Shown here piece by piece: positions 2,933 through 6,846 of a stretch of DNA of 19,859 bases (position 1 is the stretch's first letter; the number at the start of each line of letters is the position of its first letter). The stretch is taken from positions 1-19,859 of the forward strand of contig PIVQ01000059.1 in assembly GCA_003354055.1 (NCBI GenBank), given 5' to 3'. This stretch comes from Desulfobacteraceae bacterium. Its GTDB lineage: Bacteria > Desulfobacterota > Desulfobacteria > Desulfobacterales > Desulfobacteraceae. The translations under genes and the position numbers were made by a program. Below the pieces are notes generated by a model. That model searched no databases and was not told where the DNA came from. It saw nothing but the letters and a program-made list of their open reading frames with translations.

Positions 2933-3880
2933 ATGGCTGATGATTATTATAAAATTTTAGGGATTACCAAGCCCTCCTCTGCTTCAGAGATAAAAAAAGC
3001 CTACCGGAAACTGGCTCTAAAATATCATCCGGACAAGACCAAAGGCGACAAGCTTCTTGAAGACAAATTCAAAAAGATTTCCGAGGCCTATGCGGTCTTA
3101 AGCGATCCTGAAAAGAAAACTCAATACGACACTTACGGATCTGCCGATTTCTCGCAGCGGTTTTCCCAGGAAGATATTTTCAGAAATTTTGACCTTGGCG
3201 ATATTCTCAAGGAATTCGGATTCGGCGGAGGCGGACGCGGACGCGGCGGTGGATTTAGCCAGGGCGGTGCCAATTTCGGCCGCGGGGGCGGGGGCGGCAA
3301 CCCATTCTCCCAGAACATGGGCGGCGGTGGCGGCTGAGGTAGCCGTCAAGCCCCGGTTCGGGGCAAAGACCTTCAATATGAAATTCCGCTGACCATAGAG
3401 GAACTGATCAACGGCACTAAAAAAACGATTACCATCAACCAGGGCGGTCAGGCCAAGGCCATTGAAGTAAAGATTCCCAAAGGCTTAACTCATGGTAAGA
3501 AAATACGCCTGACAGGCAAAGGCGAACCCAGCCCCAACGGCGGACCTGTGGGCAATCTCTATATCAAATCGTCTCTCACCCTGCCCCAGGGCATAACTAT
3601 AGAAGACAACAATATTTCCATGACCCAAGAGGTGAAGCTGACCCAGGCCCTGATAGGAGACAAAATCCAGGTAACCACACCCGGGGAAAAAACCTTTAAT
3701 CTGACCCTGCCGCCAGGGACCAGTCATAAGGCCAAAATGCGGATACCGGGCCAGGGGATTCCTCATATGAAAGGAAATGGTTGCGGAGATCTTTATGTTG
3801 TGATTAATATAACAATGCCCAAGGCATTGGACCAGCAGCAGACTGAACTGATCAACGAACTCAAAAAGACAGGATTATAA
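2933..3880 (+). CDS. cbpA: CbpA-type DnaJ co-chaperone with an in-frame TGA (candidate selenoprotein or interrupted gene)
   Basis: Class B J-domain protein that would stimulate a DnaK-type Hsp70. Residues 3-70 are a J domain with HPD at 32-34. A Gly/Phe/Arg-rich linker follows (about 97-134), and a C-terminal substrate-binding domain runs from about 145, starting [10 protein letters not shown]. There is no zinc-finger region, which fits CbpA rather than DnaJ proper. TGA at 3335-3337 is codon 135, inside the Gly tract. The frame then continues without a shift to TAA at 3878-3880, giving 315 residues if the TGA is read, a normal CbpA length. Both halves look conserved and undecayed. A perfect 6-bp hairpin begins 12 bases after the TGA. 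Three readings are open: selenocysteine insertion, a GGA-to-TGA nonsense mutation or sequencing error, or two separate polypeptides (J domain alone to 3337). No good ribosome-binding site is seen for an independent downstream start. Confidence 0.85.
3350..3364 (+). promoter_or_regulatory. Stem-loop downstream of the in-frame TGA, possible bacterial SECIS element
   Basis: GCCCCG (3350-3355), loop GUU (3356-3358), CGGGGC (3359-3364): six perfect pairs. Eighteen bases separate the TGA from the loop. Counting the U of UGA as 1, the loop G is base 22 and the next U is base 23, close to the G23-U24 apex of the E. coli fdhF element. The bulged U of the E. coli stem is not visible. The same bases also encode Ala-Pro-Val-Arg-Gly, so chance cannot be excluded. 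Confidence 0.4.
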
Positions 3881-4418: not shown

Positions 4419-6716
4419 ATGATTATCACCTGTGAGGAATGCTCAACTCGATTTAACCTTGATGATTCCCTGATCCAGCCGAAAGGCACCAAGGTAAGGT
4501 GCAGCCAGTGTAAACATGTTTTCACGGCATTTGCCGAACCTGCCCAAACGCCTGCGCCTTCAGGGATACCTGTACCCGCTGAGATCTCCGATTCCACTGA
4601 GATACCCGTACCCACTGAAACTCCCGATCTTGAATTTGATGATCCAGGACCTTCTTCACAGACCTCAGAAGACAATTTTGACGATATCTCCTTTGACGAA
4701 CCTGAATTATCAGGTGATGCAGACCTGGATATCCCGGATGCCGAAGATACGGATCTCGACAGCCAGGATATTGATTTTGATTCGGATGAATTTGACCAGA
4801 ATATGGACTTGGGTCTGGATATGGATGAAGACCCTGGCGAAGATATGGATCTTTCTGAGCCGGATGCCGTAGGATCAGACCCTGAAATGGAAATGCCTGA
4901 ACCTGAAGAATCAGAGGCAATGGATTTCGACTTTGATGAAACAGATATTTCCTTTGAAGAAGATGACATTGAATTTGAATCCGAAGATCTGGGTTTTGAA
5001 GACACACTTGCAGCTCTGGATTCCTTGGAATCGGGTGAATCAGAGTCGGACGACATTGAAACCGGCATCCTGGAAGTTGATGCCATGGAAACCGTTGAAA
5101 TGGAATCAGATACTGACCTTCAAAATCTGGAAATGGAAACAGATGAGCTCCAGAATGATGAAATTGAAATAGACCTCCCGGATCCGGGTCTGGAAATGGA
5201 AGAAACAGAACCGGATCCTGATGATATTCAATTTGACGAACCCGAAGAAATCGACTTTGATGAACCAGCCTTTGAAGAGTCCGAGTCGGCATTCCCGGAT
5301 CTTGATTTCGAGGAAGAGGATTCTGAAGTTGACGGAACCGCGGATATTGAAATTTCCTTTGATGATGATGAAGATGATGCCCCGGCCCTGGCTGACGTCC
5401 CGTTGAAAATGGAGTCCCAAGAGGAGGAACCGGCGGACGGACCAGCGGATATTGAATTTGAAGCAGAGGACCTGAGTTTTGAGGACGAGGGTATTGAATT
5501 TGAAGAAACAGATCTACCCACGGATGCGGTTGGAGATGAAGATGCAAAAGCCCTTAGTGAGATAGATTTCCAGGGTCTTGAAACTGAAGAGGCAGAAGCA
5601 ACTATACCTGATCTGGAGCTTTCGTTTGAGGATGACCCGGATGCAGATCTGGTCTTTGAAGAAGATACAGGTGCTCCCCCACACCAAGACATAGATATGG
5701 AATCGGATGCAGTTCCCGCGCTGGAAATGGCCGCCTCCGAAGATGAAGACCTATCGTTTCCGGAACTTGATGATTTTGAGACCGAAGCCGGCAAGGAAAC
5801 AGAGGAGGACGGGCTTGATCTTTCATTTGATGAAACTGACATTGATGTACCGCTTGACCCGTTTGAGGAAGATGATACGGATTTTCAGGACAGTCTTGAT
5901 GCCGAGTTGGAAGATGACAAATTTTCAGGATATGATACGGTCCTGGATCAGGAGGTGGAACCTGGTCAAGAGCTTCCTGATTTTGACCGGGAGCTCAAAG
6001 ACGAGCCTTTCCCCGGACAGGAAATAAAAGCGCCTCCCCCTCTTCCTCCGGAACTGCACCCGGCCCAGGAAACACCATCCCCGGCTTCGGAAAGCGCGCT
6101 GATTGATCCGCTGCCGGACAAAGATGTGCGGAAAAGAAGAGCCCGGCAGAAAAAATCAGCCATTGGCACCCCGATCAAAGTATTGTTCCTGCTCTTTTTG
6201 TTGGTGATGGCTGCTTATGCGGCCAGTCTCCGGTTCGGGTACCCCATACCCTTTTTGTCTGATCTTAAAATCCCTTATCTGACAGAGGCGTTTAAACCCG
6301 AGCCACCGCCTAAACCGGTGCTAACGCCAGTACCCAATGAGGTCAGCATCAACGGCAGATTTGTATCCAATGAAACGGCCGGAGAACTGTTCATTGTCAC
6401 CGGTAAAGTTGATAATCCCTCTGATATTGACTACAGCCACATCCGGGTCAAAGGCACTTTGATTACAAAAGACAAGGCCAAAGCAACCGACCAGATCATC
6501 TATTGCGGCAATATCATTTCCGAAGAGATGTTAAGTTCAGGCAATATTTCAGATATCAGCAAACTATTGACAGTAAAAGAGGGACTTTCGAAGACCAATG
6601 TAAATATCAAGCCCGGCAAGTCGGTACAGTTTATGCTGGTTTTCTCCGACCTGCCTGAAAACCTGGCCAATTTCACCGTGGAAATCATGGATTTCCAGCC
6701 CGGAGCCAAAAAATAA
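4419..6716 (+). CDS. Zinc-ribbon (MJ0042)/DUF3426 single-pass membrane protein with a very long acidic region
   Basis: The 765-residue product starts with a short MJ0042-type zinc ribbon (Cys5, Cys8, Cys28, Cys31). About 500 residues of highly acidic low-complexity sequence follow, with repeats such as DIEFEAEDLSFEDEGIEFEE, then a proline-rich stretch. A basic cluster KRRARQKK precedes a single transmembrane helix at about 587-606, and a C-terminal domain of about 130 residues resembles DUF3426. The basic cluster predicts that the zinc ribbon and acidic region are cytoplasmic and the C-terminal domain lies outside the membrane. AAGGGG about 8 bases upstream supports the ATG at 4419. MJ0042-DUF3426 proteins occur widely in Proteobacteria, but their role is not established. 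The acidic part is much longer than I would expect and is probably disordered. Confidence 0.85.
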   Translation: MIITCEECSTRFNLDDSLIQPKGTKVRCSQCKHVFTAFAEPAQTPAPSGIPVPAEISDSTEIPVPTETPDLEFDDPGPSSQTSEDNFDDISFDEPELSGDADLDIPDAEDTDLDSQDIDFDSDEFDQNMDLGLDMDEDPGEDMDLSEPDAVGSDPEMEMPEPEESEAMDFDFDETDISFEEDDIEFESEDLGFEDTLAALDSLESGESESDDIETGILEVDAMETVEMESDTDLQNLEMETDELQNDEIEIDLPDPGLEMEETEPDPDDIQFDEPEEIDFDEPAFEESESAFPDLDFEEEDSEVDGTADIEISFDDDEDDAPALADVPLKMESQEEEPADGPADIEFEAEDLSFEDEGIEFEETDLPTDAVGDEDAKALSEIDFQGLETEEAEATIPDLELSFEDDPDADLVFEEDTGAPPHQDIDMESDAVPALEMAASEDEDLSFPELDDFETEAGKETEEDGLDLSFDETDIDVPLDPFEEDDTDFQDSLDAELEDDKFSGYDTVLDQEVEPGQELPDFDRELKDEPFPGQEIKAPPPLPPELHPAQETPSPASESALIDPLPDKDVRKRRARQKKSAIGTPIKVLFLLFLLVMAAYAASLRFGYPIPFLSDLKIPYLTEAFKPEPPPKPVLTPVPNEVSINGRFVSNETAGELFIVTGKVDNPSDIDYSHIRVKGTLITKDKAKATDQIIYCGNIISEEMLSSGNISDISKLLTVKEGLSKTNVNIKPGKSVQFMLVFSDLPENLANFTVEIMDFQPGAKK

Positions 6717-6769: not shown

Positions 6770-6846
6770 GGCGACGTAGCTCAGTTGGTTAGAGCATGCG
6801 GCTCATATCCGCAGAGTCCGGAGTTCAAATCTCTGCGTCGCTACCA
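6770..6846 (+). tRNA. tRNA with CAU anticodon, elongator tRNA-Met type
   Basis: A complete 77-base cloverleaf. The acceptor stem GGCGACG pairs with CGTCGCT (first pair G-U). The D stem is GCTC/GAGC, the anticodon stem TGCGG/CCGCA with loop CTCATAT (anticodon CAT), and the T stem CGGAG/CTCTG with loop TTCAAAT. CCA is encoded at 6844-6846. The anticodon stem lacks the three G-C pairs of initiator tRNA. CAU could also mark the Ile tRNA modified by TilS, but the acceptor and D arm closely resemble elongator Met tRNA. Confidence 0.93.

Follow-up and report, generated by a model that had tools for sequence, protein, structure and literature searches.

Class B Hsp40 co-chaperones such as CbpA, Thermus DnaJ2, DNAJB1 and Sis1 combine a J domain carrying an HPD motif with a Gly-rich linker and a DnaJ C-terminal (DnaJ_C) domain, and lack zinc-finger repeats. 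The gene described here, found in a 19,859-nucleotide stretch of DNA from a Desulfobacteraceae bacterium (the window), shares this layout but carries an in-frame UGA, proposed to encode selenocysteine (Sec), in its linker, and it falls under the NCBIfam cut-off for CbpA. In eukaryotes, the selenoproteins SELENOK and SELENOS have a role in protein quality control. Each has one Sec, placed by PMC10650576 in a Gly-rich part of the chain that lacks fixed structure, and in this they resemble the window protein; however, they are membrane proteins with the Sec near the C terminus, and homology is neither shown nor claimed. With bacterial selenoproteins that use a bSECIS element (SelD, FdhA and others in Table 1 of PMC13188914), the window gene has in common a UGA, an adjacent hairpin that lies at the usual distance and has G at its apex, homologues with Cys, and sel genes in related genomes. 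Unlike them, it encodes a J protein without an oxidoreductase fold, in which Sec would lie in a co-chaperone linker predicted to be disordered; section 7 of PMC13188914 attributes a thioredoxin-like fold to most characterised prokaryotic selenoproteins and regards most uncharacterised ones as redox-functional. J proteins of the Desulfofustis order have the same architecture and bear thiols in the same stretch just before the C-terminal part, but theirs form a Cys pair (C-X(2-5)-C), whereas the window gene has one Sec codon.

The reading frame of the window gene begins at ATG 2933 and, apart from a single TGA preceded by 134 codons, is open to TAA 3878-3880 (Table 1). The earlier note had described this lone in-frame TGA between the J and C-terminal domains and the resulting length of 315 residues, and both hold. 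Its view that the two halves look undecayed is likewise borne out: Pfam scores for DnaJ and DnaJ_C are both well over the cut-off and the sequence past the UGA is under purifying selection. By Pfam and sequence, the protein has the J domain, Gly-rich linker and DnaJ_C of class B J-domain proteins and is devoid of CXXCXGXG repeats. The label 'CbpA-type', also taken from that note, is valid for the J-protein architecture only; as an equivalog assignment it fails, with 143.7 bits against a cut-off of 403 for the NCBIfam CbpA model NF007618. Among the 14 NCBIfam models that match the J protein, none is a selenoprotein model.

Table 1 Features of the J-protein gene in the window
Feature	Position	Strand	Remarks
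J-domain gene (Hsp40, class B layout), candidate selenoprotein	2933..3880	+	UGA read through, 315 residues
J domain, Pfam PF00226, residues 4-66	2942..3130	+	with HPD motif
Gly-rich linker, residues 88-138	3194..3346	+	predicted disordered, pLDDT < 50
UGA codon 135, proposed selenocysteine	3335..3337	+	conserved in 8 other genomes
bSECIS-like hairpin	3350..3364	+	GCCCCG (3350-3355), GUU loop (3356-3358), CGGGGC (3359-3364)
DnaJ C-terminal client-binding domain, PF01556, residues 147-296	3371..3820	+	purifying selection
Cys284 codon	3782..3784	+	sole Cys codon in the gene, the UGA aside

Hsp40 proteins were the nearest relatives in both fold and sequence searches, those in the PDB being DnaJ2 (4j80 and 6psi) and a Klebsiella protein (3lz8). 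An AlphaFold2 model built from a 20-row alignment (pTM 0.47) is confident in the J domain and the C-terminal part, and has its low-confidence region in the linker that includes the Sec position. The gene is flanked by gidA/mnmG upstream and a phosphoribosyltransferase gene downstream. Further along, positions 4419-6716 encode a 765-residue protein with an N-terminal zinc ribbon and DUF3426, and this gene is followed by a tRNA at 6770-6843.

We used the read-through protein as the query against 86 genomes of one family and obtained matches in 79. An internal stop was present in eight of these 79 matched genes, exactly one in each and always TGA, so that the TGA sought in related genomes on the suggestion of the earlier note does occur there; the remaining 71 had none. 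In all eight UGA-bearing genomes (G001, G020, G022, G050, G052, G081, G083 and G084) the codon sits in the linker, as in the window. Counted back from the Gly of the [KR]G[KN][DN] anchor that marks the start of the C-terminal part, it lies 9 residues away in seven genes and 10 in two (window included). In G022, a near-complete genome of 5.0 Mb, the gene is found at 4.92 Mb on the first contig. This recurrence bears on the competing explanation offered in the note, namely that a GGA codon had become TGA by nonsense mutation or sequencing error. Although the codon does sit in a Gly tract, TGA is found in eight other genomes and, among full-length genes, at four separate places on the gene tree; many database proteins end at the site, and the second half is undecayed. 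A single-base error is thus excluded by the recurrence of TGA, and we assign this explanation a negligible probability.

The same break is visible in protein databases. Among the best 120 matches to the N-terminal half, 59 were shorter than 150 residues with a terminal Gly run, and 51 of these terminate 3-11 residues past the linker NPF motif; where source names are given, they read DnaJ domain-containing or curved DNA-binding protein. The other eight short proteins (P0176, P0178, P0180, P0196, P0202, P0205, P0209 and P0219) are more ambiguous, and contig ends may account for some of them. Judging from where they stop, dozens of these short entries (the 51 among the best 120) are probably halves of unrecognised selenoproteins. 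Four database proteins less like that of the window (P0191, P0196, P0202 and P0205) also stop after a linker GGG and are possible further Sec forms. When P0191, which comprises only the N-terminal half, was compared with 257 genomes of the Desulfofustis order, 114 of 116 matches had an open frame of at least 284 residues, the shorter ones being G505 (193) and G444 (210). Outside the family, no Sec form was seen among the matches listed (333 matches in all).

To place the UGA genes among their relatives, we used a gene tree from whose alignment the linker was excluded. Its 92 rows, drawn from 176 sequences, comprise 76 genome or window rows and 16 hand-chosen database proteins (19 were named, 3 of them identical to genome rows); partial genes, for example that of G081, were omitted. 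The eight Sec rows require at least four changes on this tree, at least two of them forced by well-supported branches, and the 15 Cys rows require ten. The SRQ(Q)APVRG stretch and the hairpin that the UGA genes share point to a single ancient Sec form that was lost several times, with repeated gains as a possible alternative.

Substitution patterns indicate that the sequence past the UGA is under purifying selection. Between the window gene and that of G020, dS past the UGA is 0.67 and dN 0.035, and in the first 70 codons pS is 0.43 and pN 0.019; four other pairs gave dN of 0.083-0.153 and dS of 0.59-1.18. A split gene, with the J fragment and the C-terminal domain made as separate proteins from their own starts, might be imagined from the mechanical ORFs at 2933-3337 and 3548-3880 and from an in-frame ATG at +134 or +135 past the UGA, the one start codon that all nine UGA genes share. 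However, that ATG falls within the client-binding domain, so separate initiation fails to explain the conserved stretch upstream of it: the 70 codons past the UGA are conserved, although the first in-frame start codon comes at +71 in the window and only at +134 in G001 and G081. We therefore consider gene fission highly improbable.

Near the 3′ end of the ORF, about 45 nt at window positions 3767-3811 (ATGAAAGGAAATGGTTGCGG...TTAATATA) hardly vary, synonymous sites included, in Sec and non-Sec genes alike among the 45 listed. Across eight UGA genes, synonymous identity in 13-codon windows at this element reaches 93%, compared with 54% on average. When as many as 3 mismatches are allowed, the element occurs once per genome in six of seven genomes and is absent from the seventh. 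It may be regulatory for the next gene; it does not appear in the promoter scan output.

Immediately past the UGA lies a hairpin resembling a bSECIS element (Table 1). Seven of the nine UGA genes have the form GCCCCG-GU(U or C)-CGGGGC, with the loop starting 18 nt past the UGA, and G050 and G052 have GCUCC-(CGUGC or AGUUC)-GGGGC at 20 nt. According to the bSECIS model given in PMC13188914, the small loop has G at its first or second position, often followed by G or U, and the distance after the UGA is 16-37 nt. All nine UGA genes fit this model, G050 and G052 weakly. A comparison of hairpin energies that took in 79 of 80 genes found a best SECIS-like hairpin of -7 kcal/mol or lower in 9/9 UGA genes versus 14/70 non-UGA genes, and of -11 or lower in 7/9 versus 5/70, the non-UGA median being 0. 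The five non-UGA genes at -11 or lower are those of G021, a Cys form, and of G017, G019, G027 and G031 (L103, L089, L102 and L097), the last four of which fall in one 20-row group of the tree. Three of these four retain the stem, with GCC as the loop, which is how a SECIS in decay might look once Sec had been lost.

Synonymous recoding reached the observed energy in only 4-26 of 2000 trials for seven of the nine UGA genes; in G050 and G052 it did as well in 468 and 398 of 2000, respectively. In plain folding of the window sequence, 8 of 200 shuffles were as good. By eye, the stem letters are nearly fixed, with one C-G to U-G change and the inner pair lost in two genes, and no two-sided covariation was seen in the stem among the UGA genes. 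Over the first 13 codons past the UGA, synonymous conservation showed no rise (181/314 pairs identical, or 0.58, where the J domain has 0.56), but this average, taken over eight UGA genes, is a limited measure because only the stem needs constraint and two of the genes carry an extra codon that misaligns. As a positive control, we took 10 selD genes in nine genomes, namely G021 and the eight whose J-protein gene has the UGA; these selD genes all contain a UGA and were each predicted to form a hairpin with a G-first loop beginning 19-21 nt after the UGA.

Decoding of UGA as Sec also calls for dedicated machinery, which we counted in the genomes of relatives. All eight UGA genomes had selA over the cut-off and a selD that itself contains an in-frame TGA, and seven had selB and tRNA-Sec over the cut-off; neither of the latter was found in G081, where the J-protein gene sits on a 3,353-base contig. 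Across the whole family, selB was present in 76 and tRNA-Sec in 66 of the 86 genomes, as against 2 and 5 of 14 control genomes. Because the machinery is general in the family, it does not separate UGA from non-UGA genes.

A near-cognate tRNA might instead decode the UGA, inserting Trp or some other residue rather than Sec. TGG is one base from TGA, and offset 10, at which G050 and G052 have the UGA, is occupied by Trp in three database proteins (P0003, P0004 and P0082). Nevertheless, the hairpin fits the SECIS model, the relatives have Sec machinery and Cys relatives exist, and TGA terminates 6 of the 15 other window ORFs that we judged to be genes, which makes such readthrough very unlikely. 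The same count of TGA terminators means that the genetic code is not reassigned, and code reassignment was ruled out as an explanation. Taken together, the recurrent TGA, the Cys residues near it, the bSECIS-like hairpin and the sel genes of relatives support the candidate selenoprotein put forward in the earlier note, and this comparative evidence argues strongly that the gene encodes a class-B-type J co-chaperone and that its UGA at 3335-3337 specifies selenocysteine (probability roughly 0.9).

The residues that replace Sec in relatives offer a view of what it might do. Cys, which the earlier note had proposed to look for, does occur in homologues, and in the same part of the linker (offsets 8-14, compared with 9-10 for Sec), but 69 of the 92 tree rows lack both Cys and Sec at the site, so the thiol is dispensable; because the Gly tract is gapped, Sec and Cys can be equated only to within a few residues. 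P0001, the closest full-length database relative and identical to the G021 protein, carries its Cys at offset 11, which is two residues away from that of Sec, and keeps the hairpin. Elsewhere among the relatives, Cys lies at offset 8 in P0008 and P0011, at 10 and 14 in P0036, at 9 and 13 in P0087 and at 11 in P0092. Over 168 non-Sec linkers, Cys occupies 16/1176 positions at offsets 7-13 versus 9/6142 elsewhere in the linker. A uniform Gly at the site, which the note had named as evidence against Sec, was not what we found: relatives show Phe, Tyr or Trp there as well as Gly.

Of 26 linkers parsed in the Desulfofustis order, 25 have a Cys among their final 22 residues, and in 24 a C-X(2-5)-C pair directly precedes the client-binding domain (within L181-L209); these linkers are the parsed members of the 30 best-scoring of 116 matches, not a random draw. 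In a second set of 20 loci, from a contig scan that covered at least 80 mostly distant loci, seven linkers were parsed and two had the pair. From these comparisons, Sec would most likely be a selenium counterpart of the thiol or dithiol that related J proteins have in their linkers, a reading that we hold tentatively, at somewhat under even odds.

The stop could also matter in itself. If Sec insertion were inefficient or regulated, the gene would yield a 134-residue J-G/F fragment alongside the full-length protein, in a ratio set by selenium that would be the functional output. The stop does sit between the functional halves, J-G/F modules are active on their own, and the tolerance of Phe, Tyr, Trp and Gly at the site in relatives means that the chemistry of Sec need not matter. 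Yet the recurrence of Cys in this stretch, together with the near-fixed Cys pairs of the Desulfofustis order (24/26), points to chemistry rather than product ratio, and we regard a selenium-gated pair of products as unlikely. Given the Cys-pair relatives, redox or metal chemistry is more likely than a purely regulatory stop.

Under decoding as Sec, a ribosome would arrive at UGA 3335-3337, SelB carrying Sec-tRNA would bind the hairpin just behind it, and Sec would be inserted in place of termination to give the 315-residue protein. This would place Sec in the flexible Gly-rich linker, between the DnaK-driving J-G/F part and the client-binding domains. There, the selenol could bind metal, join its counterpart in the dimer through a diselenide, or enter a selenylsulfide with a small thiol or with Cys284, a possible partner of Sec135. 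Such a redox or metal switch might tune chaperone activity in sulfide-rich anaerobes that meet oxidants.

A J-domain protein is absent from the 2026 table of 119 prokaryotic selenoprotein families (PMC13188914 Table 1), and no J-domain selenoprotein was found in passages of PMC12013277, PMC9312934 and PMC8318568 or in searches of open-licence papers; the supplement of PMC8318568 lists further predicted deltaproteobacterial selenoproteins. Within this literature, the J protein, whose UGA very probably inserts selenocysteine, would represent an unreported kind of selenium-containing chaperone. More speculatively, and with low probability, selenium could act as a switch of the Hsp70 system, an ample supply giving the full-length co-chaperone with a redox-sensing linker selenol and scarcity giving a free J-G/F fragment that rewires DnaK; if so, protein folding would be tied to both selenium status and redox state through a single codon. 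If Sec is indeed incorporated in the hinge of this Hsp40, the selenoproteome would gain a chaperone. Sec, Cys, Trp, Phe and Tyr versions are mixed on one gene tree, and such natural Sec and non-Sec pairs would provide a probe of the benefit of selenium outside an active site.
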